From: Nitrosospira multiformis
GTDB lineage: Bacteria; Pseudomonadota; Gammaproteobacteria; Burkholderiales; Nitrosomonadaceae
DNA length: 64,000 bases
Reading direction: 5' to 3'
NCBI RefSeq assembly: GCF_900110185.1
Contig: NZ_FOCT01000004.1
Location: 62,001-126,000, forward strand
Positions 27,339 through 44,889 of the stretch are shown here, one piece after another. Under the pieces are notes generated by a model. That model searched no databases. It was not told where the DNA came from and saw only the letters and a program-made list of their open reading frames with translations. Position numbers and translations under genes: made by a program. The first letter of the stretch is position 1, and the number at the start of each line of letters is the position of its first letter.

Positions 27339-28544
27339 ATGGGGGTAGAAATGAGACGCCAAACGTGCAAATTATCAGCAAAAGAAGTATCTAACAAGAA
27401 AAAGCCGGGTTACTACTGTGATGGCGCTGGACTCTATCTTCAGGTAAGCGACTCCGGCAGCAAATCCTGGATATTCCGTTATACCTTGAACGGCAAGAAC
27501 CGGCACATGGGGTTAGGCCCAGTTCATACTGTCTCCCTGGCTGATGCACGCACTGCCGCCGTTCAATGTCGGCAATTACTGCTTCGTAAAATGGATCCGA
27601 TCTCAGCACGTGATGCTGAGCGTACACAGCAGTCACTTGAAGCAGCAAGATCAATGACTTTTTCCGAGTGTGCTGCTCTCTATATTAAAGCCCATCGCTC
27701 CAGCTGGAAGAACACAAAACATGCCGATCAGTGGACAAATACCATCAAGACTTATTGCGGACCTGTCATAGGCCCGTTATCCGTCCAGGATGTCGATACG
27801 AAGCTGATTATGAAGGTGCTAGACCCGATCTGGGAGCAGAAACCGGAGACAGCTAGCCGATTACGCGGGCGTATAGAAGCTGTACTTGATTGGGCTACAG
27901 TCAGAGGTTATCGAGAAGGAGATAATCCCGCCCGATGGCGAGGATATCTTAGTCATGCGCTACCTTTGCTTAAAAAGAAACTCAGAGTAAAACATCATCC
28001 AGCTTTACAGTTCGGGCAGATGGCAGAATTTATGGGGTTGCTTCGAGCAGAGGAAGGCATTGCTGCAAGAGCACTGGAATTCCTCATTCTCACAGCCGCA
28101 CGAACCAGTGAGGTTATCGGTGCAAAATGGGAAGAGTTGGATCTAAAGGCTGCAATCTGGACTATTCCAGGTACGCGCATGAAAGCGGATGACCTGCATC
28201 GAGTACCACTTTCGGGAAGAGCCCTGGAAATTATCTTGAACCTGGAGAAGATCAAGCAAAGCGATTATGTATTTCCAGGCCAGAAGATCGAAAAGCCTCT
28301 AAGCAATAACGCCATGCTTAAGGTACTCGAACGTATGGGAAGAACTGATATAACCGTGCATGGTTTTCGCTCATCTTTTCGGGACTGGGCTTCGGAATAC
28401 ACAAATTTCCCAAGAGATGTATGTGAGATGGCGCTTGCTCATACAATAAGCAATAAAGCAGAAGCAGCCTATCGTCGAGGAGATTTGTTCGAGAAGCGGA
28501 GGGTATTGATGGAAGAATGGGCAGGGTATTGCGGCTATAAGTAA
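27339..28544 (+). CDS. P4-type tyrosine recombinase (island integrase)
   Basis: A 401-residue site-specific recombinase. The N-terminus is the DUF4102 arm-binding domain (KKKPGYYCDGAGLYLQVSDSG; SLADARTAAVQCRQLL); the catalytic domain carries Arg in LTAARTSEVIGAKWEEL, His-x-x-Arg in VHGFRSSFRDWASE, a later histidine in MALAHTISN and the tyrosine nucleophile in KAEAAYRRGDLFEKRR. All catalytic positions are intact. Two ATGs twelve bases apart could start it. It lies next to the att copy at 27193 and should catalyse integration and excision at tRNA-Ser, although it sits at the end distal to the tRNA. Confidence 0.94.
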   Translation: MGVEMRRQTCKLSAKEVSNKKKPGYYCDGAGLYLQVSDSGSKSWIFRYTLNGKNRHMGLGPVHTVSLADARTAAVQCRQLLLRKMDPISARDAERTQQSLEAARSMTFSECAALYIKAHRSSWKNTKHADQWTNTIKTYCGPVIGPLSVQDVDTKLIMKVLDPIWEQKPETASRLRGRIEAVLDWATVRGYREGDNPARWRGYLSHALPLLKKKLRVKHHPALQFGQMAEFMGLLRAEEGIAARALEFLILTAARTSEVIGAKWEELDLKAAIWTIPGTRMKADDLHRVPLSGRALEIILNLEKIKQSDYVFPGQKIEKPLSNNAMLKVLERMGRTDITVHGFRSSFRDWASEYTNFPRDVCEMALAHTISNKAEAAYRRGDLFEKRRVLMEEWAGYCGYK

Positions 28545-28642: not shown

Positions 28643-28813
28643 ATGAAAGCTTATTCTTACTTATACATCATAAATACAAGATTTTTGAAATTGCTTCTTG
28701 GAACGCTGCTATTTCTTCAGATCGGATTTATCAACGGCTACGCCCAAGAGTGGGAGCTTGGAACTTTAAAGCTCATGACGAGTGACCCGCCCCCGAAATC
28801 AGTACCGGTCTAA
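28643..28813 (+). pseudogene. 5' end of an exported-protein gene cut by an IS3-type element
   Basis: The frame has a good ribosome-binding site (GGAG at 28631-28634) and begins MKAYSYLYIINTRFLKLL, then LLGTLLFLQIGFINGYAQEW, a signal peptide cleaved near YAQ|EW. After about 45 residues the sequence runs into the IS-derived tail DPPPKSVPV and stops. The original protein cannot be identified from the remaining mature residues. Confidence 0.5.
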
Positions 28814-29265
28814 AGTGGAAAATTCCGGCTTCGCAGGCCTGTCGGGCAAGGCGTTTCCCTTGCCCGGTGGGCGAATTCAGCGGGTGTTGCCCACTGCAAT
28901 GCAGAATGGGGACACATCTCGTTATAGTACTGCCGCCACTCGTCAATCTTGCGCCTGGCGTCCTCCAAAAACAAGAACCAGTGTGCGTTGAGGCACTCCT
29001 GCCGGAACCGTCCATTGAAGCTTTCCACCTGGGCGTTGTCGGTGGGCTTGCCTGGACGGCTGAAGTCGAGTTCGATGCTGCGCTCATAGGCCCATTTGTC
29101 CATAACCCTGCAGATGAATTCGCTGCCATTGTCGACTTTGATAATGCTGGGCAAGCCACGCCTGGTTGCAATGTGGTTGAGCGTATTCACGACATCCTCT
29201 CCTTTCAGGCTCTGGCCCACCTCCATGGCTAAGCTCTCCCGCGTATAGTACTGGAGCAAGCTGCA
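28780..29265 (-). pseudogene. IS3-family transposase fragment (C-terminal DDE half)
   Basis: The minus-strand frame carries the second half of an IS3-type integrase-core transposase: YYTRESLAMEVGQSLKGEDVV, then IIKVDNGSEFICRVMDKWAYE with the second catalytic Asp and SRPGKPTDNAQVESFNGRFR with the catalytic Glu, ending HSALQWATPAEFAHRARE. The part before YYTRES, including the first catalytic Asp and the OrfA region, is lost. The fragment ends by joining a second, oppositely oriented transposase piece near 29265-29275. It is inactive. Confidence 0.8.
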
Positions 29266-29271
29266 CAGTTT

Positions 29272-29615
29272 CGTAGGTTGCCTCTGGCAATTCGCACTGA
29301 CCAGGGGCCGGAATTCAGCAGCAAGGCGCTGGCTCAATGGGCTTATCAGAATGGCGTTCAGCTCAAGTTGATCGAGGCAGGAAAGCCGACACAGAATGCC
29401 TATATCGAGAGCTTCAATGGCCGTTTTCGGGATGAGTGCTTGAACGATCCTGGTTTATCAGCCTGGCTGAGGCACGGATTCGGATATCAGCCTGGCGGCG
29501 CGACTACAACGAGCATCGACCTCACAGTGCACTAAATTACCTAACCCCGTCAGAATTTGCAGCCAACTGCCGTATGCAAAACGAAATCAACGGCTGCGAA
29601 AGAGAAAGTAGCTAA
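29272..29615 (+). pseudogene. Second IS3-family transposase fragment, frameshifted
   Basis: Plus-strand frame beginning LPLAIRTDQGPEFSSKALAQW, with IEAGKPTQNAYIESFNGRFRD holding the catalytic Glu. Near 29450 a one-base loss (GATCCTGG where GATCACTGG would be expected) shifts the frame; the next frame continues WFISLAEARIRISAWRRDYNE and HSALNYLTPSEFAANCR to a stop at 29613-29615. It differs clearly from the minus-strand fragment, so two distinct IS3-type elements meet here, each lacking its 5' half. Confidence 0.78.
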
Positions 29616-29675: not shown

Positions 29676-30854
29676 TTAAACAAACCCGGCAAAGTGCTCG
29701 GTTTTAATCTTTTTTGCCACTGCCTGTCCAATGGACTGAAGTTCATCGATGTGCTCTACTGAATCCAGTTTCTGAACATTTTCTGGCTTGATGTCTGACA
29801 GCCCCAGGTCTTTCAATCCCTCGGAAGTTAAATTCGCGTTATAGCGCAGATAAGTAAACAATTTACTCGATCCGGCTGGCGCGGCAACACCGATCATATC
29901 CCCTACCTCCCGGTCCAAGCTATCACCCACCAGGCATTTCCCAAATACCCGGCAGAGGAAATCCTGCTCATTCAGCGCAGCAGCCATCAAGGCAGAAGGA
30001 AGCGATGTGGCGTTATAAAGTAGGTTCATTTTGTCGGGATCCAAATCGGTATTGGCATCAGCGCTTGTACCGGTTCCAATCGATACAATGAGCATCTGAT
30101 CCTCCCCGGTGGCCCAGTTCATTTGGTAGGGCTTGACTGTGGCCATCAGGAATGCCTGGAAAGCAGGATTATTGTATGTGGTGATCCCTCCATCGACGAA
30201 TATAAAATCCTTTTTTCCCAGTTTCACGACTTCCGGTGGAAAATATACAGGTGCGGCCGTACTTGCTCGTACCAGTTGCCACAACGGCAGATACAGGTTG
30301 CAGTTTTCCCGAACCCTTCCGTCAGGACGCGTCGTCTGGTTGTACATCGCAAAGGGATTATTGGAAATAGGCCAGGGAGAGTCAGTGGTGGCATTACGCA
30401 TTACCATCATCAGAACAGTTTTGAGTTGGTTGCTACCCAGCAGAAGGTCTTTCTCTGTCTGCTGATGTTTGAAGATTTGGCGTAATTTGTTGGCGAGATT
30501 TTCGTCCTCATACTTGTAACGCATTCGTTTGAGTAAAGATGCCTTGTCAAACATATCGCTGCCACTTTTGACATAAAAATCCCTGATATCGGAGACCTTC
30601 ATGCCAACGGAAATGCACGCGGCAATGATCGCGCCTGTGCTGGTACCGGCAACGAAATCAAAATAATGCGAAAGGCTGAAATCGTCCTCGTTCTTTTTGC
30701 CAAGTTTCTGACGCAATATACTCTCGATCCCAGCCAAGATTTCGACCGTGATCATTCCACGAATACCGCCCCCATCAAGCGCGAGAATTTTTTTCGGTCC
30801 CGATAACTTTATACGATTTCTCACCTGCTCGTTTTGAATAGCAGCATCTTGCAT
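29676..30854 (-). CDS. Patatin-like phospholipase
   Basis: A 392-residue patatin-family lipid acyl hydrolase. Residues 24-33 hold LALDGGGIRG (oxyanion loop), 70-74 GTSTG with the nucleophile serine, and 221-223 DGG with the catalytic aspartate, so the Ser-Asp dyad is complete. There is no signal peptide. I chose this start because AAGGAGA precedes it by four bases; the longer frame would run into the upstream gene. It lies 59 bases after the giant TIR-STAND-WD40 gene on the same strand. Patatins are known effectors that damage membranes in several anti-phage systems (for example CapV in CBASS), which suggests an effector role here. Confidence 0.9.
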   Translation of the reverse strand: MQDAAIQNEQVRNRIKLSGPKKILALDGGGIRGMITVEILAGIESILRQKLGKKNEDDFSLSHYFDFVAGTSTGAIIAACISVGMKVSDIRDFYVKSGSDMFDKASLLKRMRYKYEDENLANKLRQIFKHQQTEKDLLLGSNQLKTVLMMVMRNATTDSPWPISNNPFAMYNQTTRPDGRVRENCNLYLPLWQLVRASTAAPVYFPPEVVKLGKKDFIFVDGGITTYNNPAFQAFLMATVKPYQMNWATGEDQMLIVSIGTGTSADANTDLDPDKMNLLYNATSLPSALMAAALNEQDFLCRVFGKCLVGDSLDREVGDMIGVAAPAGSSKLFTYLRYNANLTSEGLKDLGLSDIKPENVQKLDSVEHIDELQSIGQAVAKKIKTEHFAGFV

Positions 30855-30913
30855 ATTGTCTCCTTGCGATTGTTTCTTCTTAACATTCGAGTTATCTGAA
30901 TCAATAGTATTGT

Positions 30914-33900
30914 TTATACTTCCGCCGCGGGAATCATCAACTCCAAGCATTGCTGCTCATAGGGAATATTTGGCGAGATCCATTTTCGCCATTCCTCACG
31001 GCTCATGTTACGGATGAGTTTTTTACATAGCTCATTAGGCCAGACCTTTGGGCCCGGCCACAAGCGCAGAATTTTGTCTCCACTGCCCGAGACGATGCGA
31101 CTGCCATCCGGACTGGAGGCCACGCTTTCTACCCCAGCCTCATGGCCGCGCAGAGGCTCGCCGATGGGCTGGCCGGTCTGCGCGTCCCACAGGCGCACAG
31201 TCCTGTCCTCGCTGCCCGAGACGATGTGGCTGCCATCCGGGCTGAAGGCCACGCTCGTTACGCTATCCATATGGCCGCGCAAGGGCTCGCTGATGGGTTG
31301 GCCGGTCTGCGCGTCCCACAGGCGCAGGGTGCTGTCCCAACTGCCGGAGACGATGTGGCTGCCATCCGGGCTGAAGGCCACGCTTGTTACTATACCCTCA
31401 TGGCCGCGCAGAGGCCCGCCGATGGGCTGGCCGGTCTGCGCGTCCCACAGGCGCAGAGTCCTGTCCTCGCTGCCCGAGACGATGCGACTGCCATCCGGGC
31501 TGAAGGCCACGCTCGTTACGCTATGCATATGGCCGCGCAAGGGCTCGCTGATGGGTTGGCCGGTCTGCGCGTCCCACAGGCGCAGGGTGCTGTCCCAACT
31601 GCCGGAGACGATGTGGCTGCCGTCCGGGCTGAAGGCCACGCTTGTTACTATACCCTCATGGCCGCGCAGGGGCCCGCCGATGGACTGGCCGGTCTTGGCG
31701 TCCCACAGGCGCAGCGTCCTGTCCTCACTGCCGGAGACGATGCGGCTGCCATCCGGGCTGAGGGCCACGCTTGTTACTATATCCCCATGTCCGCGCAGGG
31801 GCCCGCCGATGGGCTGGCCAGTCTTCGCATCCCACAGGCGCAGGGTCTTGTCCTCATTGCCGGAGACAATGTAGCTGCCATCCGGGCTGAAGGCCACGCT
31901 TTCTACCCCAGCCTCATGTCCCCGCAGGGGCTCACCGATGGGCTGGCCGGTCTTCGCCTCCCACAGGCGCAGGGTCTTGTCCTCATTGCCGGAGACAATG
32001 TAGCTGCCGTCCGGGCTGAAGGCAACGCTTGTTACTATACCCCCATGTGCGCGCAGGGGCCCGCCGATGGGCTGGCCGGTCTTCGCATCCCACAGGCGCA
32101 CAGTCCTGTCCCTACTGCCCGAGACGATGCGGCTGCCATCGGGGCTGAAGGCCACGCTTTCTACCCAAGCCTCATGTCCGCGCAGGGGCCCGCCGATGGA
32201 CTGGCCGGTCTTCGCGTCCCACAGGCGCAGAGCCCTGTCCCTACTGCCCGAGACTATGCGGCTGCCATCGGGGCTGAAGGCCACGCTTTCTACCTCAGCC
32301 TCATGTCCGCGCAGGGGCTCGCCGATGGGCTGGCCGGTCTTCGCATCCCACAGGCGCAAAGTCCCGTCCAAACTACCGGAGACGATGCGGCTCCCATCCG
32401 GGCTGAAGGCCACACTGAATACTGGGCCCCCATGGCCGCGCAGAGGCTCGCCGATGGGCTGGCCGGTCTTGGCGTCCCACAGGCGCAGCGTCCTGTCCTC
32501 ACTGCCGGAGACGATGCGGCTGCCATCCGGGCTGAAGGCCACGCTTTCTACCTCAGCCTCATGTCCGCGCAGGGGCTCGCCGATGGGCTGGCCGGTCTGC
32601 GCGTCCCACAGGCGCACAGTCCTGTCCACACTGCCGGAGACGATGCGGCTGCCGTCCGGACTGAAGGCAACGCTTTCTACCCAAGCCTCATGGCCGCGGA
32701 GGAGTCCGCCGATGGGCTGGCCGGTCTTGGCGTCCCACAGGCGCAGGGTACTGTGCACACTGCCGGAGACGATGCGGCTGCCGTCCGGGCTGAAGGCAAC
32801 GGCTATGATTGGCGCATCTGCAGCCATGATCTTTTTCGTGTCCCGTTTGCTTATCAACATGGTTAGCAGTCCGGATTCTACTTCTTTGATTGGCGTCATG
32901 CGCCATGCGGCAACTAATTGCAGGATTGCCCGCTCGTCACCACCTGCCTGCAAACCGTTTGCTATCGCCTGGCTTTCTACAGCAAGCCTAAGACCATTTG
33001 TTTGCATTTGTGCCATCTCCGCCTTTATTTGTTGCTCCTTTGCATCAAAAAAGGCATAAATAGCATATATGAGAGCAACCAACACAACGCCAATCGCCGA
33101 CTGCAGTTGGCGTTTGCGCCTTAACAATCGTTCTGTAGCTCGTGTTTGCTCTGCTGCCAGCGCCTTTGCTGCCTCTTCCCTTTGCTTTGCAGCTATCAGC
33201 TCAGTTTCAGCCACCTGCTGCTTAGCCTGTGCAAGTTTTTCTAAAACACGTTGCTTTTCTTCGATTTTTTGGCGCTCCAAGTATGCAATAGAATTAGCAT
33301 GCAAGCGCGACCGCTCGATAAATTTTCTCTCGATTTCGGTAATCTCACTTTTTCGGATATCAAACCAATGTTCCGCTTCGGTTAGAAGATTTCCCGTAAG
33401 TAAGATGTCTCTGTCTTCTTGATTGGTTCTCCACTTAACCACATAGGTGGCAAGTTGGCTGCGCCACATGAAGAAATATGCATCAGGAATTGAATCCCCA
33501 TTCCCGAAATAATGCATAGGATTGGGGCTGGCGAGGGCGATCCAAATGCCACTGCTTGTAGGCGCTGATTCGCCTTGGGGACGTTTCCGCCAGATATCGA
33601 TTAGACCCCTCATCGCTAATAAATCGCGGAGTCTCTCAGCATCAGTTGCCACAATTGCCGGTATTGTTTCCGCTTCCGACCACACCTGCGATTGAGCGAC
33701 TAATTCCAGGCGCTCGTCCAATTTGGTCAGGTTTTTGAAGAGTACCTTTACAGCTGCTCTATCTATTTCGTTAAACGAGGCCAACACATTATCGATGTGC
33801 CTTTGGAAAACACCTCGAAGATGACCAAGGGCATCCAAACTTTTGTTTGTCAGCCAACCACGGCGGCGTTCATTCCACAACAAAACAAGGGTGATTTGGA

Positions 33901-36007
33901 TTTGAAAGACCGCATTTTTGGCATCCCCTGCGCTTTCAATTAATCTTTCAGTCAGGCCGTTTTCTAGAAGATGTCCAGCCTCGCGGGCCGGCTGTTCAAT
34001 CGCCCGACGCAAGGATTCGCCTTCCAGTTTTTCAAGTATGACCCTGTGACAACCTTGCCTTTGCCATGATTGAAGAACCGAATCATATTCTTCGTCATGC
34101 AGCACACCCCGCCATACTAGGAGCACCCGCAAGGAGGATGTGGTAAGAGTTAACAGGGATTGAATTTTTTTTAAACGAAGGGCGAAGGATGAAATAGGCG
34201 TTTCAGTAAAACTATCGATATTATCGATAATGACTAAAGTTCTCGATTTAGCCGGGTCTTTCCCTGAAATAGCCGTGTCGAAACTCAAAGCTGGCGATGC
34301 GAGAAATTCCTCGGTATCGGCATCGAGCTGAATAGATTTTTGACTGGAAGATCCCAACCTTAACCGTGGTAATACTCCGCCATAAATTAGAGATGTTTTT
34401 CCTGTCTTTGCAGCGCCTTCTAACAGTACGACTGGGTGCATCTCAAGCGCCGCGATTAAAACCCCGATCTCCTCATCGCGGCCATAAAAAAAGCGAGTGT
34501 CATCTTCCAAATAGGCATGTTCGCCGGGATAGGGGCACTGAATGTTTATGTCCATCCCGTTGCCAAGCTTGTTGGCCGCTACTGTACGCTTTGCGAGCAA
34601 TATAATTTCACGAAGACCATCTTCATGTATTTCTTCCCGAAAATTTATCCCTACGTAATTATCTAGGCCGTACGATTGAAGGGCTGACAACTGGGCGCCC
34701 GGCAGAAATATGGGAATAATCTGTTTTTTATCGCTACGTCTAACGAAATTCAGCAGCTTGGCTCGCCAAGGGGAGTCCGATGAATGACCAAAACAAACGA
34801 GAACGTGGGCACTGTAATCCAGTGCTCGTTCGATTTCCTCCGACCAAAGAGCTCCCATGTTCAGAGAGGCATCGATAAACACTTTCATTCCCCGCGTTTC
34901 AAGCTCCCGAGACAAGAACAACGCCACATCCCTATCGCTCTGTCCATAATCAATAAAGAAATCGAATCCGGAGGTTGCGCGAGAAACGTCTGCATGGAGC
35001 AGAGTTATTTCAGGACTTACTTGGCCGCGTAACCGGGCAAGGGCTTCATTGCGAAGCCTGTAGAGCGGGTCGCCAGCATTTGCAAGAAGAACCAAGGCAT
35101 CGGCCAGTCGTTCAAAAGCTCCACTAACTGCTGACGTCCGGTCCGCATTCACAAAATCATCGCCAACCAGCTGCTCTTCAACGGCAAACTCGGGTAGATA
35201 TGGCAGGATCAGATTCCGGTAACCGATACCAATTTCGGCCAGTGCAAGGGGTAAGCCTTCTGATCCAAGCTCACGCTCGAATGCTGCCAAGAACTTGTCT
35301 CGCATTGGATGATTGTCAGCCACGCGGGCAGGAATAGCTAAAATATCAAGCTTCCGTCCGTATCTGAGGCCCAGTACACTGTCCGACAAAAAATCCCGGG
35401 CGACATCCCGGGTCCCTTCCAGATTTTGATAGTTGGGGGCGCACATGAGGACTGCGACATCGGCTAACTGATAAGCACACACCCCCCCCATCTCGGTTAC
35501 GCCAGTACGACTGTCAACCAGAACAACATCGTAGCCTTGCTCCGATTCTGTCCACTGTCCCCGCAGCCATTGAAAAAAAATATCTCCCTTCCAGTTGTAG
35601 AAAAAATCCTGCCAATCAAAGCTACGCACCGCAAGCGCGTAGTCCCGTATCTTTCCTACTGGTTCCCGTTGCCCTGCTGTCAGTAGATCAACACGTCCCC
35701 CACGAGAGCTTGCTGCAACAATAGCTGGCGAAATGAAACGGTCAAGCCTTTTGAAAGCCGGATTTTCAAATTCTGCCTCATCCGAAAGGGCACGCCGGTA
35801 GTCTTGTAACAGATCCATCAGCCCCAACTCGCCGCGTTTCAAACGGCTGCGTTCATTATCGAAAAAATAGCGTTCGAGTCCTGGCGCTTCCAGATCAAAA
35901 TCGACGGCTAAAACTCTCATGCCCCGGCGGGCAAGCAAGTGGGCAACGGCAGCCAGCGCCATTGACCGCCCTACACCGCCTTTATAGCTATAAAACGTAA
36001 TTATCAT
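30914..36007 (-). CDS. Giant KGGVGR ATPase - TIR - STAND - WD40 protein
   Basis: A 1697-residue multidomain protein. In order: residues 1-300, a MinD/ParA-like ATPase of the KGGVGR variant (YSYKGGVGRSMALAAVAHLL; VVLVDSRTGVTEMGG); 348-460, a TIR domain (FDFFIDYGQSDRDVALFL; LWSEEIERALDYSAHVLVCF, where NADase TIRs have their catalytic Glu); about 505-900, a STAND-type NTPase with Walker A GAAKTGKTS at 531-539 and Walker B LVIIDNIDSF; about 900-962, a charged coiled coil; 966-990, one membrane helix (AIGVVLVALIYAIYAFFDA); 1064-1650, fourteen WD40 repeats; then a short conserved tail (LWPGPKVWPNELCKKL). It probably senses a target through the WD40 part and fires the TIR and/or the downstream patatin. 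The exact combination is unusual; function is inferred. Confidence 0.88.
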   Translation of the reverse strand: MIITFYSYKGGVGRSMALAAVAHLLARRGMRVLAVDFDLEAPGLERYFFDNERSRLKRGELGLMDLLQDYRRALSDEAEFENPAFKRLDRFISPAIVAASSRGGRVDLLTAGQREPVGKIRDYALAVRSFDWQDFFYNWKGDIFFQWLRGQWTESEQGYDVVLVDSRTGVTEMGGVCAYQLADVAVLMCAPNYQNLEGTRDVARDFLSDSVLGLRYGRKLDILAIPARVADNHPMRDKFLAAFERELGSEGLPLALAEIGIGYRNLILPYLPEFAVEEQLVGDDFVNADRTSAVSGAFERLADALVLLANAGDPLYRLRNEALARLRGQVSPEITLLHADVSRATSGFDFFIDYGQSDRDVALFLSRELETRGMKVFIDASLNMGALWSEEIERALDYSAHVLVCFGHSSDSPWRAKLLNFVRRSDKKQIIPIFLPGAQLSALQSYGLDNYVGINFREEIHEDGLREIILLAKRTVAANKLGNGMDINIQCPYPGEHAYLEDDTRFFYGRDEEIGVLIAALEMHPVVLLEGAAKTGKTSLIYGGVLPRLRLGSSSQKSIQLDADTEEFLASPALSFDTAISGKDPAKSRTLVIIDNIDSFTETPISSFALRLKKIQSLLTLTTSSLRVLLVWRGVLHDEEYDSVLQSWQRQGCHRVILEKLEGESLRRAIEQPAREAGHLLENGLTERLIESAGDAKNAVFQIQITLVLLWNERRRGWLTNKSLDALGHLRGVFQRHIDNVLASFNEIDRAAVKVLFKNLTKLDERLELVAQSQVWSEAETIPAIVATDAERLRDLLAMRGLIDIWRKRPQGESAPTSSGIWIALASPNPMHYFGNGDSIPDAYFFMWRSQLATYVVKWRTNQEDRDILLTGNLLTEAEHWFDIRKSEITEIERKFIERSRLHANSIAYLERQKIEEKQRVLEKLAQAKQQVAETELIAAKQREEAAKALAAEQTRATERLLRRKRQLQSAIGVVLVALIYAIYAFFDAKEQQIKAEMAQMQTNGLRLAVESQAIANGLQAGGDERAILQLVAAWRMTPIKEVESGLLTMLISKRDTKKIMAADAPIIAVAFSPDGSRIVSGSVHSTLRLWDAKTGQPIGGLLRGHEAWVESVAFSPDGSRIVSGSVDRTVRLWDAQTGQPIGEPLRGHEAEVESVAFSPDGSRIVSGSEDRTLRLWDAKTGQPIGEPLRGHGGPVFSVAFSPDGSRIVSGSLDGTLRLWDAKTGQPIGEPLRGHEAEVESVAFSPDGSRIVSGSRDRALRLWDAKTGQSIGGPLRGHEAWVESVAFSPDGSRIVSGSRDRTVRLWDAKTGQPIGGPLRAHGGIVTSVAFSPDGSYIVSGNEDKTLRLWEAKTGQPIGEPLRGHEAGVESVAFSPDGSYIVSGNEDKTLRLWDAKTGQPIGGPLRGHGDIVTSVALSPDGSRIVSGSEDRTLRLWDAKTGQSIGGPLRGHEGIVTSVAFSPDGSHIVSGSWDSTLRLWDAQTGQPISEPLRGHMHSVTSVAFSPDGSRIVSGSEDRTLRLWDAQTGQPIGGPLRGHEGIVTSVAFSPDGSHIVSGSWDSTLRLWDAQTGQPISEPLRGHMDSVTSVAFSPDGSHIVSGSEDRTVRLWDAQTGQPIGEPLRGHEAGVESVASSPDGSRIVSGSGDKILRLWPGPKVWPNELCKKLIRNMSREEWRKWISPNIPYEQQCLELMIPAAEV
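31060..32815 (-). repeat. Fourteen near-identical 129-base WD40 repeats
   Basis: Fourteen units of 43 codons, each of the form V.SVAFSPDGSRIVSGS..D.TLRLWD followed by KTGQPIGGPLRGH. Most units differ at only a few residues, mainly in the positions after VSGS, after the tryptophan, and at the end of the unit. Repeats 9-10 and 11-12 are almost the same pair, pointing to a recent 258-base duplication. Fourteen repeats would make two seven-bladed propellers. High identity makes the region unstable by recombination. Confidence 0.92.
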
Positions 36008-36028: not shown

Positions 36029-37753
36029 TTACCCCAATAACTCATCAATTTTGTTTACCAAGTTCGGCTGACTGGAGAATCCGTCCGCTTCGATGATCAG
36101 CCGCGGAATCGCTACACGTAGCCAACGGCAAACGCGTTCCTCGTTGTTGAGTGCCAGCTCGCACTGAGGGTCCTGTTCCGCTTTAAATCGGCTTACGATC
36201 GATCCAATGTGAAGAAATGAAAATTCGCCGAGTAATCTATGAGTGGACAGATGTGCGGGGTCGCAGGGACTGATTGAAACAATCGCACTTCGGGACGTCG
36301 CCAGTAAAATTCTGCTGGCCTCCCGTAGGCGCGGGTGCAGTAAAGCGAGTTCGTCAACCATAAAGAGGCATCCTTTGTCTCGTAAACTCAGGATCACGCG
36401 TTTCGAACCCTCCATGTCGTCCAAATACTCATCCAAGCTGTAATGCCGTACGATTATTTCCGCATCATGCAGGAGTTGTCGTTCACGTGAGCCACGCGAT
36501 GCCTTATTAATGTCATTGACTACATCTTGAATTAACTGCTGAACTGTTCGAAACGAGGAGCCGAAGCACCGCCAGTGAACGCGTGCATTTCCATACATTC
36601 CACGCGGCCAGTCGTTGTGAAGAGCACTGGCTGCACTGGCAAGCTGCTTAAATTGCCTCAACCGCTGATCCCTTTCCTCCTCGTCGAAACGCATGATCAG
36701 ATCAGGCTCAGCTTTGACTAAGCTCTCGGCCTCGTCTAAGGTCGGAGCAATTACGATACATGGAAGTGCAAGTCGCGGTTCATTAGTTACTGTCGCCAGG
36801 CTGCGGAACTCATCGCAAATTTGCTTTACCGCTGCTAATGGAAATTGACTCAACTGTCCGGAGTTCATAGAGATGGAGTTTAGAGGTTGCCATTCAGGTG
36901 GCAAATGTTGAGGATCAATGTCTAGACAGAGTAAAACCGCGAGGCCTTGCCGCTGGCGCAAAATGTTTATTACCCGGCCAAATCGAGGCGAGCCTTCTAA
37001 AGTTGTCATACGCGGCAGTGACGTTGGTGTTACGAGCAAGCAACAAAGCTGTCCTGCCTGCAATCCCTGGTCAAGTTGCCATGCGATATCATTGCCTGGA
37101 GAACTTAACTCGGCTATAGAAAAAAAAGTTGGAGCATGTTTAATGATCTGATCACGTATATCATCATCTGAGCCTCGTAGACTTAATATCGTTACGGGCC
37201 GCAAGGCGCAATTCCAGTGCTTGCGTGGATCGAATATCGGTTGTCCGGGCGCTTGATCTCGATGAAATCGTGTTCGGGCACTTATAACCTCTTCAGTCAA
37301 TCGAAGCTGGAGTTCGTTGCTGTTACTGAATTCATAAGATTGCTGTTCTCGCTTACACCGGTCTCTAAAACTCTCTATGCGCTCTGCTGTTTTCTGATGT
37401 TTGATAGCATCTATGTGCTCCTCAGAAAATCCACCCTTTTTTAAATAAATCAGACGAGGAATATTTCTGCCTTCTGTTCTACACGCCTCGTATTCGAGCT
37501 CAGTTATGGATTTGGCATTTTTATCATGTTCCCCATCCGGAACCCATCCGTAACGCCTACCTATTATGCCGATATATAGATTGCATTGATGAACATCGCT
37601 GATGCAGGTCGCTACCGTCTTTTTTTCGCTTGCCCTATAGCTATCCATCACTAAACCATGGCGCCGAAGAACATTGATTGCAACGTCTCTTTCCTCCTTG
37701 AGATCTTCTATTGTTGAAGAAAGATAAATCCGAAACTCAGGCAAATTGGTCAT
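36029..37753 (-). CDS. DUF4062-domain protein of the TIR-STAND operon
   Basis: A 574-residue protein. Residues 1-100 are a DUF4062 domain (FRIYLSSTIEDLKEERDVAI; CNLYIGIIGRRYGWVP; SITELEYEACRTEGR), a TIR-like Rossmann module often found at the N-terminus of STAND immune proteins. The remaining 450 residues have no domain I can name; one segment (CLFMVDELALLHPRLREASRILLATSRS) resembles an NTPase Walker B region, but no Walker A is evident. It lies 21 bases upstream of the giant KGGVGR-TIR-STAND gene, so the two are almost certainly co-transcribed; it may be a sensor or regulatory partner. Confidence 0.72.
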   Translation of the reverse strand: MTNLPEFRIYLSSTIEDLKEERDVAINVLRRHGLVMDSYRASEKKTVATCISDVHQCNLYIGIIGRRYGWVPDGEHDKNAKSITELEYEACRTEGRNIPRLIYLKKGGFSEEHIDAIKHQKTAERIESFRDRCKREQQSYEFSNSNELQLRLTEEVISARTRFHRDQAPGQPIFDPRKHWNCALRPVTILSLRGSDDDIRDQIIKHAPTFFSIAELSSPGNDIAWQLDQGLQAGQLCCLLVTPTSLPRMTTLEGSPRFGRVINILRQRQGLAVLLCLDIDPQHLPPEWQPLNSISMNSGQLSQFPLAAVKQICDEFRSLATVTNEPRLALPCIVIAPTLDEAESLVKAEPDLIMRFDEEERDQRLRQFKQLASAASALHNDWPRGMYGNARVHWRCFGSSFRTVQQLIQDVVNDINKASRGSRERQLLHDAEIIVRHYSLDEYLDDMEGSKRVILSLRDKGCLFMVDELALLHPRLREASRILLATSRSAIVSISPCDPAHLSTHRLLGEFSFLHIGSIVSRFKAEQDPQCELALNNEERVCRWLRVAIPRLIIEADGFSSQPNLVNKIDELLG

Positions 37754-37985: not shown

Positions 37986-39521
37986 CTAGACTGCGGAAAC
38001 CGGCTGGCTCAGGATCGCAATCCGGATCTCGTTCAGCACAATGCCTTCGTTGAGCTTCTTTTCCTCGATGGCGCGGTGGTGCAGCGCGATGGAGTCGAGC
38101 TGGCGCGTGAAGACCGGCGATCCGGAATTGCCGCCGATCGTGGGACTGCGATAGCGGATGTAATGCTTTTCGTATTCCGCTAGGCTGTTGTCGTAGAGCG
38201 ACACGGCTAATTCTTGCCCGCCTGGATGCCCGATGACATAGATGCGCTGCTCAGCAACCTTTGCGGGATCGATCTTGGGCAAATCTGCACAGGGAGCAAG
38301 CGTGTAGCAGGTGCCCGGCATGTCGATCGCGAGGATGCTGACATCGAGTGCAAAACGCGGCGAGCTGAAGAGCAGTTCACCCAGCTTGATCTTGGGCCGG
38401 CCGGGAAGCCGCGTGAATTCGGCCACAGCTTGCTGGGGCCGCAAGGGAGCCCGATCGGCAGGGTCCTGACTGATGACGTGCGAATTGGTGAGCAGCACGA
38501 TCCTGCCAGCCCAAACAGGGTTGAGCAGGCCGCCTGCGACCAGGAAGCCAGTTCCTTCCGGTCTACCGGTTGTACCATTGCTGATGCGGGCAATGGCATT
38601 ACAGCGCTCGTACAGACTGTCGAGCCATTGCAGGTAGACGATATTCTCATCCCCCCACACGGCTTCGAACCCTTCGGTTTTCAGTTCTCCCTTCGGCTGA
38701 AGAGGCTGTTCCACAGTGGCTCCCTCTTTCTGCAGTGCGGCAAACTCGAGTGGCGGAAGCAGCACTTGTCCCAGCGGCGTTTTTTCAAGCTGCCAGACTT
38801 CCTTCAGTTGTCGTAGCGTGCTGCCCAGCTCGAATGCATCTGCATCTGGATGGTGGAGGTACTTCGAGATACAAACGAGTGCAGCGTCTTTGTTTCCTCG
38901 CGCAACGCACGCTTCCATTGCAGTCGCATAATCCCATATGCCGCCCACTCCCTGATCGTCAATGTCGGCGAAGATTTCCCCGGCAATCTTAGCGGGGTCG
39001 AGGTCGTAGGCCAGTTGTATGTTATCGCGCTGGGCACGGGCGGCAAGTGCTGCAATATTGATTCCCTGCCAGCGGTAGTCGCCGGTGCGATTCTGCCAAT
39101 CCAGTGAGTAAGCCGAGATGGCACTACGAAGATCTTCGGGATGGTGCTGATTGATGTACTGCTGCTTGTACGCCCGGCCAATTAGGCCCCGTATTTCCGG
39201 GCCCTCGACCGGATCGTTGCCGTGTTTTGCCGAGAGATCTTCGAGCGCCCGCAGGGCCTGCGTGATGCGATTCTGGTCGAGCAGCGCCTGCGCCCATTGT
39301 CGGCGGATGACTGGATGTGAATGCCCGGAGGCGATAAATATGCTAGCGACGCGCTCCATGTCGGCAAAACGCCGCTTTCGGCGCATCAAGGCGAGCGTCT
39401 TCTTGATCTGGGAAAGCGTAAAGCCTGAAGGGTCGATGCGATCGGTGAGGTCGCGAATGTCGAGGTAACGATATTCGCGCAGCGCCAGGGCGAGTTCAGT
39501 TAGAAATTCGGCGGCGTCCAT
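37986..39521 (-). CDS. TPR (TRAFs-binding-like) protein with trypsin-like protease domain
   Basis: A 511-residue protein without signal peptide. Residues 1-65 form a small helical domain (FLTELALALREYRYLDIRDL) that resembles effector-associated domains. Residues 70-270 are TPR-like and match the MAP3K TRAFs-binding (DUF4071) type, with IRGLIGRAYKQQYINQHHPED and YRWQGINIAALAA. Residues about 310-500 are a chymotrypsin-fold protease with His in LLTNSHVIS, Asp in FALDVSILAI and Ser in GGNSGSPVF, a complete triad. The related TPR architecture in the 41.5-43.5 kb gene suggests the two proteins act together, with this one as an intracellular protease effector. Confidence 0.82.
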   Translation of the reverse strand: MDAAEFLTELALALREYRYLDIRDLTDRIDPSGFTLSQIKKTLALMRRKRRFADMERVASIFIASGHSHPVIRRQWAQALLDQNRITQALRALEDLSAKHGNDPVEGPEIRGLIGRAYKQQYINQHHPEDLRSAISAYSLDWQNRTGDYRWQGINIAALAARAQRDNIQLAYDLDPAKIAGEIFADIDDQGVGGIWDYATAMEACVARGNKDAALVCISKYLHHPDADAFELGSTLRQLKEVWQLEKTPLGQVLLPPLEFAALQKEGATVEQPLQPKGELKTEGFEAVWGDENIVYLQWLDSLYERCNAIARISNGTTGRPEGTGFLVAGGLLNPVWAGRIVLLTNSHVISQDPADRAPLRPQQAVAEFTRLPGRPKIKLGELLFSSPRFALDVSILAIDMPGTCYTLAPCADLPKIDPAKVAEQRIYVIGHPGGQELAVSLYDNSLAEYEKHYIRYRSPTIGGNSGSPVFTRQLDSIALHHRAIEEKKLNEGIVLNEIRIAILSQPVSAV

Positions 39522-39597: not shown

Positions 39598-40371
39598 TCA
39601 AAGATCCGGCAGCGCAGCTATGTATTCATTAGTATAGGCTTTGATCTTGTCCTTGATCTTGTCGCGGATGCTCTCCAGCACCGTATCGTTGACGGTGACC
39701 TTCCCGGAGCAGTTCTCCAGTTCCACACGGTCCTTCCGGATCTTGAAGAACAGAACCTGGGTCAGGATCGATTCCGCCTTCAAGGTAAAGGCCATCATCG
39801 TAATGAAGAAGTCGTCATTTTCCCCCGGCTGAGCCAGCGAGACCTGGAAGTGGGCAGTATTGAGAGTTTTGCTTTCACGGTCGAAGAGCGTGATCCAGGG
39901 TTTGTTCGGATCCATGGATTTCATCGCTTCCAGGGTGGACACCACCAAGGCAAGCGCCGTGGGGGCCGGCCCCAGGAGGACGGTAGCGACCTTAATGATC
40001 GCTTCATGCGCTTCCAGGCCGTCGGCGTGCTCTTTGTAGGAGGAGAAACCTTTGTCTTGGAGGACCCACCCAAGATTTTCCAGCACATCGAAATAGGCTT
40101 TGTACCAGTCGATGATGCGGGTCTTGTCAGGCACTTTCTTGTTGGCGGCAAGCTGGGCAAGCAGGCTACAGTTGGCGATGTCCTGCCGTCGCTCCGCTGA
40201 GACGCCCTTTACAAAGGAGACGATGTCGGAGGCAACCACCATCGCCTGGTTCTTCTGTGCATCGAAGTCGATGACAGGACCGCGGTCGATGGCTTCAAAA
40301 CCAGACGAGGACTCGGGAAGCTCTACGTTGTTCAGGAAATGATGGGCAGATGCGGGGGTGATAGTATTCAT
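39598..40371 (-). CDS. Hypothetical protein between TIR remnant and protease genes
   Basis: A 257-residue soluble protein with no family I recognise. The N-terminal half is helical (AMVVASDIVSFVKGVSAERR; LLAQLAANKKVPDKTRIIDW), with a hydrophobic stretch LLGPAPTALALVVSTLEAM that might touch membrane, and the C-terminal half looks beta-rich (AHFQVSLAQPGENDDFFI; FKIRKDRVELENCSGKVTV). It lies 76 bases upstream of the TPR-trypsin gene on the same strand and is probably co-transcribed; it could be the substrate, inhibitor or pore-like partner of the protease, none of which is shown by sequence. Confidence 0.6.
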   Translation of the reverse strand: MNTITPASAHHFLNNVELPESSSGFEAIDRGPVIDFDAQKNQAMVVASDIVSFVKGVSAERRQDIANCSLLAQLAANKKVPDKTRIIDWYKAYFDVLENLGWVLQDKGFSSYKEHADGLEAHEAIIKVATVLLGPAPTALALVVSTLEAMKSMDPNKPWITLFDRESKTLNTAHFQVSLAQPGENDDFFITMMAFTLKAESILTQVLFFKIRKDRVELENCSGKVTVNDTVLESIRDKIKDKIKAYTNEYIAALPDL

Positions 40372-40476: not shown

Positions 40477-41533
40477 TCAAAGCGTAGCCCGCGCTTGAGG
40501 CTGCGATTCATCCGAAGGGATTGGCAGGCCCGGACATTGCTCTACGTAGGGAATGTCAGGGGATACCCATTTTCGCCATTCCTTACGGCTCATGTTGCGG
40601 GTGAGTTTTTTGCATAGCTCATCAGGCCAGACCTTTGGCCCCGGCCACAGGCGTAAGGTGCTGTCGTCACTGCCGGAGACGATGCGGCTGCTATCCGGGC
40701 TGAAGGCCACGCTCCATACCCGACCCTCATGGCCGCGCAGGGGCTCGCCGAGGGGCTGGCCGGTGTTCGCATACCACAGGCGCAGCGTGTTGTCCCCACT
40801 GCTGGAGACGATGCGACTGCCATCCGAGCTGAAGGCCACACTGGTTACAATATTCGCATGGCCGCGCAGGGGCTCTCCGATGGCTTGACCGGTGTTCGCG
40901 TTCCACAGGCGCAGGGTGTTGTCCCTACTGCCGGAGATGATGCGGCTGCCATCCGGGCTGAAGGTCACGCTCGTCACTGCACTCTCATGCCCGCACAGGG
41001 GCTCAGTTATGGGGTGGCCGGTCTTTGCGTCCCACAGGCGCAGGGTCCTGTCCATACTGCCGGAGACGATGCGGCTACCATCCGGGTTGAAGGCTACACT
41101 GAAAACTGATCCCGTATGGCCGCGCAGGGGCTCAGCTATGGGCTGGCCGGTTCTCGCGTCCCACAGGCGTAAGGTGCTGTCCCTACTGCCCGAGACGATG
41201 CGGCGGCCATCCGGACTGAAGGCCACGGCTTTTACCGGCGCATCCGCAGCCATGATCTTCAAAGTACCCCGCTTATCTATCAGCATGGCCAGCAAGCCTG
41301 ATTCGATCTCGCTGGCTGGCGCTGTACGCCGGTGAAGTTAAAAAGAGAAAAGCCTCGCTTCGGCTGTGGGCTTTTGATAGCCTCTCTTTCCAGCGCTCCC
41401 CGATTTTGATTCCGGTTTCTGGATCGAAATCCAGAAATACTTCATCCTTCCACCCCTGGGATTCCAGCCATACTTTCATGGCGAGTGCCTCCCGATTATT
41501 CTGGCTGGAATGGCTCAGAAAAATTCTGGCCAT
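40477..41533 (-). pseudogene. Collapsed TIR - WD40 gene (middle deleted)
   Basis: The first frame (from 41533) is the start of a TIR domain: ARIFLSHSSQNNREALAMKV, WKDEVFLDFDPETG and SRSEAFLFLTSPAYSAS. Near 41335 the coding sense shifts frame and continues as ASEIESGLLAMLIDKRG, matching the region just before the WD40 repeats of the giant protein, then five WD40 repeats and the same tail (LWPGPKVWPDELCKKL). The STAND domain and the rest of the TIR are missing. It is a decayed relative of the 30.9-36.0 kb gene but with a directly N-terminal TIR. A separate WD40 product from an internal start (41295) cannot be excluded. Confidence 0.8.
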
Positions 41534-41537
41534 GGCG

Positions 41538-43520
41538 CTATCCCAGATCTTTCGTTTTGATCCAGGTCACTTGCCCGGTTCTACGTTGAACCTCTTCATA
41601 CATATGAGCTGTACCACCCCGCCCGTCCCCTTTGTTGCCGTCCCAGAGGCAAATGAATTGGACCTTCTTGATGCCGTAAGAGAGGGCAGTGTAGAGCAAC
41701 CAAAGATTGCAGCGCTCATAAGTATCCACACCCTTGGGTGCCGGTCCGAGCTCATCCGGGAGGATCCGTGGTGGGAATTTTAGGGTAGAGATGAGCGCAT
41801 AGTAGCGCTGCCGCCATTGCTCGCCTTTGTCGGAGGGAAGAATGGATTTTTGAATGAATGTGGGTTCCGGAAAAGGCAACAGGAGCTGCAGGCGCACCCC
41901 GCGCTTCTTGCATGCTTCCAAAAATAGGATATCCCCGCCGCTTGCTCCTTGGGCAAGGGCGAGGTCATCCGCACCTGCCCCTAATTCATCCAGCGCTTCA
42001 CCGATCTTTTGTGCTGCTGTTTCGGCTTTGCTCTCTGGAAACCGGGAGTTAGCGCGGTCAGGCTCGTCAATCCTATGACCGCTGAAAAGCAGCACCTGGC
42101 GCGGCTCCCATTTCTTTTCAGGTTCGTCGAGTTCATTCAACGCGCGTTCAAAGACGGCCATTCCCGCAGCAACCGTATCCGGACGAAAGCCGAGGTCGTT
42201 CAGCAGGCGCAATTGCGCATAAGGCGAGTCGACGTAGAACCAGTTGTTGCCGCTACGGGTGAGCGCCTCCTTGTAAGCTGCTTTGACATTAGCGGGAGTA
42301 CCATCCAGTACTTCAAGATCACCTAAGGTTGCCTTGGCCCAATATATATTGCTTGCGTCAGTCTCGCATTCAGCGGCAAAGCGTACTGCGCCTGCCATGA
42401 TGCGTGCCATATTCTCGTAGCGCGCATCGCTGGTAAGATGCTGGTAAAGATGCATCAGGGTGAGGGCATTGATCCCGGAAAAATAGTGGCGAGGATCGTG
42501 TCTGAAGCCGCTGGCATAACTTTCGATGGCAGCACGGAGCAGGGCATCCTCATATGCGGCATCTTCAGACATCTGTTCTGGTGTACTTCCCCGTCGGTGC
42601 CATTTTGCGATCCAGGCATCCTTGTCTACCCGGCCAAGCAGTGCCCAGGTTTCAGCGTCACGAGGATGGTTCTTTAATACCCCTTGGTAATGCAACCGTG
42701 CCCGATCCAGCGAATGGCCGGGTTCTTTGGCCAGGGCTAGCCGTTGCAGGCACATGCCTTTTTCCCGAAGACCATTGAGGTTGTCCGGCTCAACCGAAAG
42801 ACCGCGTTCCAGTTGCTCGAGAGCAAAACAAAAACGTCCCCCCTTGCGCAGAGCTTCTCCGGCCTTGATCCTGGCCTCAGCGCGAAAGGCCGCCACTGGC
42901 GCTTCATCTGCCAGCAACAGCAGATCGCCGATATGACGGGTCGAGCAAGCCAGGGAAACGCGGTTCTCCCAAGCATCGTGCTGCTGCCAGAATTCCCGTA
43001 CGTCTCCTACACGCAACGACTTCCAGTCCGGCTCCTGCAGGTTGGGCAATAAATGATAAACCGGGCTTTCCTTGCGCTCGTGCCATGAAGCCATGGTTGC
43101 CTTGACCATATCGGTCAGACGCTGGCGATCGCTTTCCAGTGTCGCGAGGTCGGGTTTGCCGTTTGAAAGGCTATAGCGCAGCTTGCGCTGGGTGTAGAGA
43201 TCAAAAGCTGGGCAGAGACCCCCGCAAACCAATACGAGGCCACGTGCGCGCAGGGCATGCCGTATCCCTAGTTCATACCAGACGTTGGGATTGTCAATCG
43301 TGAGGTCTGCAATAACCAGGTCGGCAATCAGCAGTTCCTGGAACATATCGCTGATGATATCACCAGCGCGCTGCTCCTCATCAGCACGGAAGGTTTCCAG
43401 TCCCGCAGCTTCTAAAGCAGGATAGATATAGTCCGAATATACGGCATTGAAGTCGATCAGTTGACCGTCAGGACCGGGCTTGGAACCGAAGGGCATGGCA
43501 ACGAAGGCGTGCGGTTTCAT
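41538..43520 (-). CDS. DrHyd-like - TRAFs-binding TPR - SLOG-like protein
   Basis: A 660-residue protein. Residues 1-150 resemble the nucleoside-deoxyribosyltransferase/TIR-like fold (KPHAFVAMPFGSKPGPDGQL; DLVIADLTIDNPNVWYELGI). Residues about 190-440 are TPR of the MAP3K TRAFs-binding (DUF4071) type (FALEQLERGLSVEPDNLNGL; ETWALLGRVDKDAWIAKW; YFSGINALTLMHLYQHL). Residues about 470-600 form a Rossmann-like domain (RQVLLFSGHRIDEPDR; LALAQGASGGDILFLEACKK) compatible with SLOG nucleotide-sensing modules. Similar domain orders are known from predicted bacterial conflict proteins and resemble the regulatory core of animal ASK kinases. It probably senses or makes a nucleotide signal; not demonstrated. 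The TIR-WD40 remnant follows after four bases. Confidence 0.75.
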   Translation of the reverse strand: MKPHAFVAMPFGSKPGPDGQLIDFNAVYSDYIYPALEAAGLETFRADEEQRAGDIISDMFQELLIADLVIADLTIDNPNVWYELGIRHALRARGLVLVCGGLCPAFDLYTQRKLRYSLSNGKPDLATLESDRQRLTDMVKATMASWHERKESPVYHLLPNLQEPDWKSLRVGDVREFWQQHDAWENRVSLACSTRHIGDLLLLADEAPVAAFRAEARIKAGEALRKGGRFCFALEQLERGLSVEPDNLNGLREKGMCLQRLALAKEPGHSLDRARLHYQGVLKNHPRDAETWALLGRVDKDAWIAKWHRRGSTPEQMSEDAAYEDALLRAAIESYASGFRHDPRHYFSGINALTLMHLYQHLTSDARYENMARIMAGAVRFAAECETDASNIYWAKATLGDLEVLDGTPANVKAAYKEALTRSGNNWFYVDSPYAQLRLLNDLGFRPDTVAAGMAVFERALNELDEPEKKWEPRQVLLFSGHRIDEPDRANSRFPESKAETAAQKIGEALDELGAGADDLALAQGASGGDILFLEACKKRGVRLQLLLPFPEPTFIQKSILPSDKGEQWRQRYYALISTLKFPPRILPDELGPAPKGVDTYERCNLWLLYTALSYGIKKVQFICLWDGNKGDGRGGTAHMYEEVQRRTGQVTWIKTKDLG

Positions 43521-43863: not shown

Positions 43864-44889
43864 ATGGAAAGTGAGATTAGTCGCGTTTTCGTTAGTCATG
43901 CCTCGAAAGACAAGCGCTCCAGAGTACGTCCGTTAGTAGAGGCTTTGGCGTTGGAAGGCGTTAGCCTCTGGCTCGATCGTCCTGGTGCTGGCGCGGACGA
44001 TTTTGGTTTCGACGAAAAATTCATTCGCAAGTACGATATCAAGGGTTTGGTGGCTGGACTAGACTGGGACACTCAGATTCTTGAGGCGCATCGTTCCTGT
44101 GGCGTGGTGCTCGCCTGCGTTTCCCGCGCCCTATGCAAGGAGCGTCAAGTTCTGGTCCACGAATTGGTGCTGGCACGGTATGCTGGCAAACTGGTCTCCT
44201 GTGTTATTGATGACCTGCCGTTTGAAGAAATACCGTCAGATTTGGGGCTACTAGACATCTCAAAGCTTCAGTCTCCAAGAGTAGATGTGGCAGTCCTGAT
44301 GCAGGCTGTAAACGAGCTAAAGGCAAACTGTAACCTTTCGCCAGCTAACTTCGATCCTCCGCTCGCTTCGCAATGGCAAATCCTGCGGCAGCTTGTTTCA
44401 GACATCAACCAGGTCTTCGCCCGGCGAGGTCTAACAAGAGTGTCAGAAGCCGACATGGACGTGGTCCGTGCAACCTTGCGAGCAATACCTGTGGATCCTA
44501 TGGTTCGCGCATTCGAAATCCCATTTTTCGTGATCGAATTATTCGCTGCGCGGTTGCAGGAGCCAGACGCAGCTCGCCGGCATTTCAAGCTTTCGATGGA
44601 CCTAGCTCTTCAGTGCGCCGATGCTGAACACACTCCTCTACAGAGCGTCGTATCGTTAGGTGATGTCATTAACCCTGATAAGAATCCACCCATCGCGTTT
44701 TGGGGGGACGTCCTGACCGCTGCGGGGTATAAATCACGCCGTACGCTCGCCGCACTGCTGCTTGCGCCTGGCCCTCTCGCCCCCGGAAATCTTCCTGACA
44801 ACACTGCACGAGAACTTAGCAATTTTGTCGCGTGGCTTACCAACCCTAACATGACTCGACCCACTTCTGACTGGAGTTCCGCGATATGA
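43864..44889 (+). CDS. TIR-domain protein, first gene of a three-gene operon
   Basis: A 341-residue soluble protein. Residues 5-135 are a TIR domain: RVFVSHASKDKRSRVRPLVEAL, VSLWLDRPGAG, ILEAHRSCGVVLACVSRALCK and LVSCVIDDLPFEEIP. The residue equivalent to the NADase glutamate is probably in the DTQILEAHRSC segment. Residues 150-341 are helical and unrecognised (LRQLVSDINQVFARRG; FFVIELFAARLQEPDAARRHF), perhaps a sensor or oligomerisation part. Its stop overlaps the next gene by four bases (ATGA). Pairing of a cytosolic TIR protein with a large exported protein is uncommon among described systems. Confidence 0.82.
   Translation: MESEISRVFVSHASKDKRSRVRPLVEALALEGVSLWLDRPGAGADDFGFDEKFIRKYDIKGLVAGLDWDTQILEAHRSCGVVLACVSRALCKERQVLVHELVLARYAGKLVSCVIDDLPFEEIPSDLGLLDISKLQSPRVDVAVLMQAVNELKANCNLSPANFDPPLASQWQILRQLVSDINQVFARRGLTRVSEADMDVVRATLRAIPVDPMVRAFEIPFFVIELFAARLQEPDAARRHFKLSMDLALQCADAEHTPLQSVVSLGDVINPDKNPPIAFWGDVLTAAGYKSRRTLAALLLAPGPLAPGNLPDNTARELSNFVAWLTNPNMTRPTSDWSSAI

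Follow-up and report, generated by a model that had tools for sequence, protein, structure and literature searches.

The window analysed here, a stretch of 64,000 nucleotides from Nitrosospira multiformis (contig NZ_FOCT01000004.1), a member of an ammonia-oxidising genus, carries on its minus strand the gene of a giant STAND (NLR-like) protein, the C-terminal part of which is formed by an array of WD40 units. The following features are located in and around this gene, with the units numbered in protein order:

27339-28544, plus strand: tyrosine integrase (Pfam Phage_integrase, Arm-DNA-bind_3), possible island edge
29676-30950, minus strand: patatin-like phospholipase (Pfam E 1.5e-25; PADLOC phospholipase effector models)
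30914-36007, minus strand: giant STAND (NLR-like) protein of 1697 aa, a single open frame
30917-31060, minus strand: C-terminal tail of the giant protein past the last blade, 58% identical over 43 aa to the relative in Nitrosospira sp. Nl5 and matched in 26 fetched loci
31022-32827, minus strand: 14 WD40 units of 129 bp (exactly 43 codons, in register; 2 x 7 blades), C-terminal part of the giant ORF
31151-31666, minus strand: near-exact two-unit duplication, units 10-11 (31409-31666) and 12-13 (31151-31408)
33038-33109, minus strand: predicted membrane helix (about aa 967-990) between NTPase and WD40 units, hydropathy up to 2.2
33671-34534, minus strand: nSTAND1 NTPase (aa 492-779; Pfam PF20703, E 1.5e-35)
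34604-34960, minus strand: TIR_2 domain (aa 350-468; Pfam E 1.9e-14), catalytic Glu possibly missing
35849-36001, minus strand: ParA/CbiA-like P-loop start (aa 3-53; Pfam CbiA, E 4.5e-7)
36029-37753, minus strand: DUF4062 protein (Pfam E 2.5e-20), ending 21 bp upstream of the start of the giant gene
37986-39521, minus strand: TPR-S and trypsin-like protein (Pfam)
39598-40371, minus strand: 257-aa protein without Pfam family, matched in four fetched loci, two of which are the same Nl5 contig
40477-41295, minus strand: remnant NLR, five WD40 units (second array) and tail (TRF, unit parsing)
41333-41533, minus strand: remnant NLR, TIR start, 76% identical to aa 1-67 of the Nl5 NLR
41538-43520, minus strand: TPR-S protein (Pfam PF20308), 81% identical in Nitrosospira sp. 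Nl5

The patatin gene lies downstream of the giant gene and its start overlaps the end of the latter by 37 bp, while DUF4062 has been reported as a TIR-like NADase (PMC13174449). A related locus is found in Nitrosospira sp. Nl5 (G109), a member of the same genus, comprising a patatin gene (80% identity), a TIR/pterin-dehydratase gene, counterparts of the TPR-S/trypsin protein (81% over 356 aa), the 257-aa protein (82% over 79 aa) and the TPR-S protein (81%), and a TIR-nSTAND1-WD40 gene with 14 units. To this last gene corresponds the remnant at 40477-41533 of the window, where the TIR start and the five blades are split by an internal deletion. The giant gene sits three genes from this remnant and its product shares with the Nl5 NLR a related stalk (60% over 145 aa), though its N-terminal part outside the stalk has no match in Nl5, even if both proteins carry TIR and nSTAND1 domains. 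As stalk and tail are related and the N-terminal half is unmatched, a related sensor module has therefore been joined to different N-terminal halves. The last 61 aa of the integrase recur with 85% identity at one end of the Nl5 stretch that was fetched, and the patatin, DUF4062, TPR-S and trypsin genes together with this integrase suggest, as far as gene content can tell, a mobile conflict island that is partly common to Nitrosospira sp. Nl5. Few TPR-S relatives have a WD40 array next to them: of 241 loci, 80 were kept, and 10 of these showed such an array (several of them incomplete). The remnant array was considered as a current donor of units to the giant gene and rejected, since none of its units exceeds 86% identity to a unit of the giant protein and no recent copying is visible.

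Several further genes were noticed in this region. A transposase (rve) fragment lies at 28813-29337, between the integrase and the patatin gene, and a TIR gene and, after it, the gene of a 780-aa protein with no Pfam match occupy 43864-47228. In the Nl5 locus, the trypsin-like protein (L014:4873-5745) has Asp at the position of the presumably catalytic His of the window copy.

With regard to the giant protein itself, an alignment of five sequences (17-25% identity to the query) places Asn where most of the other TIR domains have Glu, in the column which presumably holds the catalytic Glu motif, and because of this Asn the TIR domain of the giant may be inactive, with the reservation that alignment identity is low. 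An AlphaFold model of the last 653 residues, of moderate confidence (pLDDT 75, pTM 0.49), has strands in blade order and repeated blades, and the best PDB match in both sequence and fold was 2ymu, the 14-blade WRAP double propeller, with Apaf-1 as the next fold match. A close orthologue of the whole giant protein was found neither in genomes of the window's genus nor in the genome contigs or the class sample. The contig scan with its N-terminal part gave nine stretches and no relative, the class sample gave its own genome alone (1 of 369), and a plasmid search yielded 11 records with partial matches only. On a Pseudanabaena plasmid, a ParA-like relative of the start of the giant is located near MoxR, SAV_2336-related and caspase-family genes.

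The helix between NTPase and WD40 units appears to be a recurrent feature of the relatives. In 38 arrays the upstream sequence was long enough for this comparison, and 31 of these show a hydrophobic helix at most 170 aa before the first blade; the N-terminal flank of this helix carries the higher net charge in 28 of these 31, and if only Lys and Arg are counted, this flank is the richer one in 22, even with the other in eight and the poorer one in one. Since membrane helices tend to be oriented according to the positive-inside rule, this charge bias of the N-terminal flank would place the propellers in the periplasm, and hydropathy and charge consequently suggest a periplasmic sensor for the giant protein. 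A limited literature search, which is weak evidence of absence, gave no description of a membrane-anchored periplasmic WD40 STAND sensor; location of STAND sensors in the cytoplasm or periplasm is discussed for another sensor fold in part of an earlier study (PMC10907252).

TRF reports the WD40 part of the giant gene as one 129-bp tandem array (31058-32801, 13.5 copies, score 2306). The initial annotation had described fourteen nearly identical 129-base repeats at 31060-32815, with repeats 9-10 copied as 11-12. Number, length and location of the repeats were borne out, while both ends had been set slightly short. The copy is likewise real, with 6 of 258 bases differing between the two unit pairs (1 and 5 differences per 129 bases, 4 of the 6 altering the amino acid) in this 49-contig draft genome, in which misassembly of near-exact repeats is possible; the numbering, however, was one too low, since the copied units are 10-11 and 12-13. 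"Nearly identical" is true of some pairs and overstated as a whole, because pairwise identity across all 14 units averages 81% at the DNA level (range 55-99%) and 76% at the protein level, and the 12 full internal units reach a mean of 86% DNA identity. The divergent units of the array are the first and the last.

A search with the C-terminal part of the giant protein found matches in 37 of 125 genomes of the family, with one genome per species. Forty stretches were fetched, 38 of them for arrays, which together with the window and two earlier loci gave 44 ORFs with at least four units (ORFs with fewer units were dropped); these loci are chosen matches and no random sample, and a single profile, built from the window units, served to find all units. 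After exclusion of six contig-edge arrays from the tally, the 38 arrays uncut by a contig end have 14 units in 20 cases and 13 in seven, the set also including short arrays with five (two), seven, eight, nine and 11 (one each) and ten units (two). Within these counts, L086 was taken as 14 and looks like 15 by spacing, L087 has a gap, and the neighbouring 14-unit and 5-unit frames of L084 may be one broken gene. A change in repeat number, which had been anticipated as the visible outcome of fast evolution, was therefore discarded as the main signal, 14 being the commonest count across species.

The arrays of the family differ strongly in how their blades relate to those of other species. In frozen arrays, each blade is most similar to the blade of the same index in the relative (e.g., 0.94 versus 0.67 or 0.94 versus 0.56 for blades of other index), and pairs with 83% N-terminal identity keep a register of 0.76-0.79 versus 0.58-0.59, while in frozen arrays of the L081/L068 type with 76-79% N-terminal identity the register is weak (0.68-0.72 versus 0.65-0.67). 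In homogenised arrays, position is uninformative: the window array and the remnant score 0.80 for same-index and 0.80 for other-index blades, the Nl5 and window arrays 0.74 and 0.73, and the remnant shows no blade register with the Nl5 NLR, though their TIR starts are 76% identical. Between the window array and the nearest relatives found, among which there is no close orthologue of the giant protein, the blades no longer correspond one to one. The best-controlled case is a homogenised pair of another protein, whose N-terminal parts share 87% identity over 595 aa and where the best register reaches 0.82 versus 0.80 for all pairs, one partner ending at five units at a contig end. Across the 43 ORFs with at least five units, every scored internal unit had its best match in its own array in nine, none or one did so in 27, and seven were intermediate, among them the Nl5 NLR with 7 of 12 internal units; the outcome of this measure varies with the presence of a close orthologue in the sample.

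The initial annotation had also invoked recombination as a source of change. Inside the units of the window array, decay of linkage disequilibrium is not significant (P = 0.12; 42 of 190 site pairs fail the four-gamete test), so that reshuffling at this level is not apparent there, while the decay is significant in L052, L060 and L014 and not in the frozen arrays L081 and L061; L077 had no usable units for this test. One of these arrays, L061 (7443-11312), has retained its 14 units, with an N-terminal part up to 93% identical to that of its relatives, while its blades have dropped to 0.74-0.75 versus 0.88-0.93 among the other orthologues, which possibly reflects turnover at constant repeat number.

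The expectation that the units differ mainly at a few positions was confirmed by the per-codon alignment, and their location at surface residues is supported. Replacement change in units 2-13 peaks at codons 6, 8 and 24, followed by 5, 18, 4 and 26. According to DSSP on the model of unit 10, codons 4-6 form the loop before strand a, codon 8 lies in strand a and codons 24-27 make up the turn between strands b and c, and the most variable codons are thus in loop or strand positions that belong to the WD40 top face in the fungal model. In fungal HNWD proteins, codons 7, 9, 25 and 27 are positively selected around the constrained codons 8 and 26 and form the top interaction face, as described in part of PMC1805685; shifted by one, these are codons 6, 8, 24 and 26 of the window units, around 7 and 25. 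At these four codons, which were taken from that study after the window profile had been seen, dN/dS among units 2-13 is 3.14 (bootstrap 2.21-3.84; 0 of 500 below 1), a value that is approximate as for any dN/dS within a recombining array, and codons 7 and 25 have no replacements. A six-codon set, picked after the window profile had been seen and in the light of the fungal work, gave 2.66 compared to 0.17 for the remaining codons. When changes were counted by parsimony on a tree from which the variable codons had been left out, the ratio was 3.0 (P = 4e-6), and 31 pooled units of the genus gave 1.57 (P = 1.7e-4). An HNWD-type excess of replacements around constrained codons is hence present in the window array by a counting method, not by FEL; all selection tests exclude units with fewer than 40 of 43 codons, the window's first and last unit among them.

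Comparable values were obtained for other strongly homogenised arrays. In the four arrays whose units average 0.85 DNA identity or more and include a sufficient number of full ones, dN/dS at the four codons is 3.14 (the window array), 2.77 (2.09-3.43), 2.11 (1.36-2.83) and 1.24 (0.87-1.82, an interval including 1), i.e., clearly above 1 in three of the four. Less homogenised arrays mostly lack the excess at the six codons (Nl5 0.75, L062 0.60, G103 0.62, L084 0.64), with L076 at 1.32. Frozen arrays range from 0.2 to 0.9 within the array where calculable, with synonymous change near saturation, and nine frozen pairs compared at the same blade between species, some arrays being part of two pairs, have values of 0.04-0.23 at the four codons, this between-species value being a different measure from the within-array one. 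The excess at the four codons, the constraint elsewhere and the low values of the frozen pairs support a diversifying recognition surface in the window array; of the fast-evolving surface proposed initially, the diversification (dN/dS of about 3 versus about 0.2) is consequently supported, and a change in repeat number is not supported across species.

An alternative reading would be a young propeller, amplified recently from one or a few blades as proposed for WRAP and now drifting, in which the variable codons are the least constrained ones and no arms race takes place. Highly repetitive prokaryotic WD40 proteins are in fact described as common and mostly young in parts of PMC5587647, and continuous amplification of propellers in parts of PMC9218822. 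In line with this, the four replacements that have arisen since the latest duplication in the window array (units 11 versus 13) fall on codons 5, 18, 28 and 41 and none on codons 6, 8, 24 or 26. Relaxed constraint, however, predicts a dN/dS of at most 1, in contrast to the observed value of about 3 with a lower bound above 2, and units 2-13 differ synonymously (pS = 0.24), which argues against a brand-new amplification. We therefore regard drift of a young array as an unlikely explanation.

Quite unlikely in our view is a static, asymmetric binding site, in which each blade is tuned to a fixed ligand and the blades were made different once and are preserved since. Frozen arrays of the same family would fit such a scenario well, their blades being different and their top-face codons conserved across species as described above. 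The units of the window, in contrast, are far more alike synonymously (0.24 versus 0.59-0.80 in frozen arrays), and the loss of blade correspondence with the relatives compared, which include no close orthologue, speaks against preservation as well. Writing of the variable codons by a diversity-generating retroelement, a mechanism that diversifies STAND sensors in multicellular bacteria (PMC10907252, in part), was rejected as highly improbable, since no reverse transcriptase (0 RVT_1 matches in the 99% complete genome) and no template repeat was found, the unit DNA query hitting, besides the two arrays, no more than a short and weak stretch on another contig, which lies in a second WD40 gene.

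The closest known system is WRAP of Nostoc (Nostoc punctiforme Npun_R6612, PDB 2YMU), which, according to passages of two reports, consists of 14 highly similar blades in two 7-blade propellers, forms the C-terminal part of a STAND protein and is coupled to a TIR-STAND gene (PMC9218822; PMC6805158). The giant protein of the window shares with WRAP, judged by its domains, a STAND NTPase (nSTAND1) in the same protein and 14 units in register. It differs in its other N-terminal domains and in the units, as those of WRAP hardly differ and show no synonymous changes, while those of the window have the synonymous differences and the top-face replacement excess given above; the predicted membrane helix of the giant may be a further difference. 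The same reports, citing Dunin-Horkawicz et al. (2014), show that WRAP and a rapidly turning-over role in innate immunity are known already. For highly repetitive prokaryotic WD40 proteins in general, a conserved framework with diverse interaction hotspots has been described (Hu et al., 2017; PMC5587647), sections 7, 10 and 11 of that work containing neither a site-specific selection test nor a contrast of frozen and homogenised arrays.

Fungal HNWD NLRs (HET-D, HET-E, HET-R) likewise combine an NTPase with a homogenised WD40 array, with the same four selected and two constrained codons (PMC1805685), and a double 7-blade clamp has been modelled for them (PMC12222747). As far as these sources report, they have HET and NACHT domains, usually 11 conserved repeats in active alleles and repeat-number polymorphism (PMC1805685; PMC12222747; for further biology see PMC2873952 and PMC4986451), whereas the giant protein features TIR_2 and nSTAND1 domains instead of HET/NACHT, a predicted membrane helix and 14 units. 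The cassette also resembles Swarozyc, a DUF4062 NADase (PMC13174449), by the domain alone, and differs from it by the position of the DUF4062 gene, which adjoins the NLR-like gene and the patatin gene. Propeller and TPR parts occur in NTP-dependent conflict systems, too (Kaur et al., 2020; PMC7159879, in part), and the genes around the ParA-like relative on the Pseudanabaena plasmid are a further resemblance to them. Unlike these systems, the 16 window proteins scanned contain no MoxR-vWA pair. TIR and trypsin parts are further components of NTP-dependent conflict systems. Our literature search on diversifying selection in bacterial WD40 STAND proteins returned WD40-repeat papers concerning fungi and, otherwise, a BREX survey.

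We consider it on balance probable that the array serves a bacterial NLR-like (STAND) conflict receptor as its module for ligand recognition, and that this receptor is encoded on a mobile island of a Nitrosospira-type bacterium. Starting from the homogenisation and the replacement excess observed, we infer that the 14 units could fold into two 7-blade propellers which clamp a foreign protein, most likely phage-derived. Ligand binding would release the nSTAND1 domain for oligomerization, and the partner patatin and DUF4062 proteins would be candidate effectors that kill or arrest the cell. The single membrane helix would leave the propellers in the periplasm and the NTPase and TIR domains in the cytoplasm. 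Units may be exchanged and re-amplified inside the array by gene conversion or paired unequal crossing-over, while selection would hold their count near 14 and favour new top-face residues.

More tentatively, these proteins could represent a membrane-spanning class of bacterial NLRs with a periplasmic double-propeller receptor that exists in two modes, i.e., frozen on a fixed ligand, or homogenised and re-amplifying with renewal of the fungal-type top-face codons, and with a receptor module that is combined with different N-terminal signalling halves in one mobile island. If so, recognition geometry and selected codons would be common to these bacterial receptors and the fungal receptors for non-self, and frozen and diversifying versions would occur side by side within a single bacterial family that includes members of Nitrosospira and Nitrosomonas. 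Such a family would offer a natural control for what fixes a propeller versus what makes it diversify, and receptor specificity might become readable from a few codons per blade.

Two additional observations concern possible defence genes and longer arrays. In the window, a SIR2-like and DUF4020 protein is encoded at 53393-56896 and is possibly another defence gene. At L017:8399-13087, a second NLR-like gene of the same genome carries 17 WD40 units, mostly of 42 aa.
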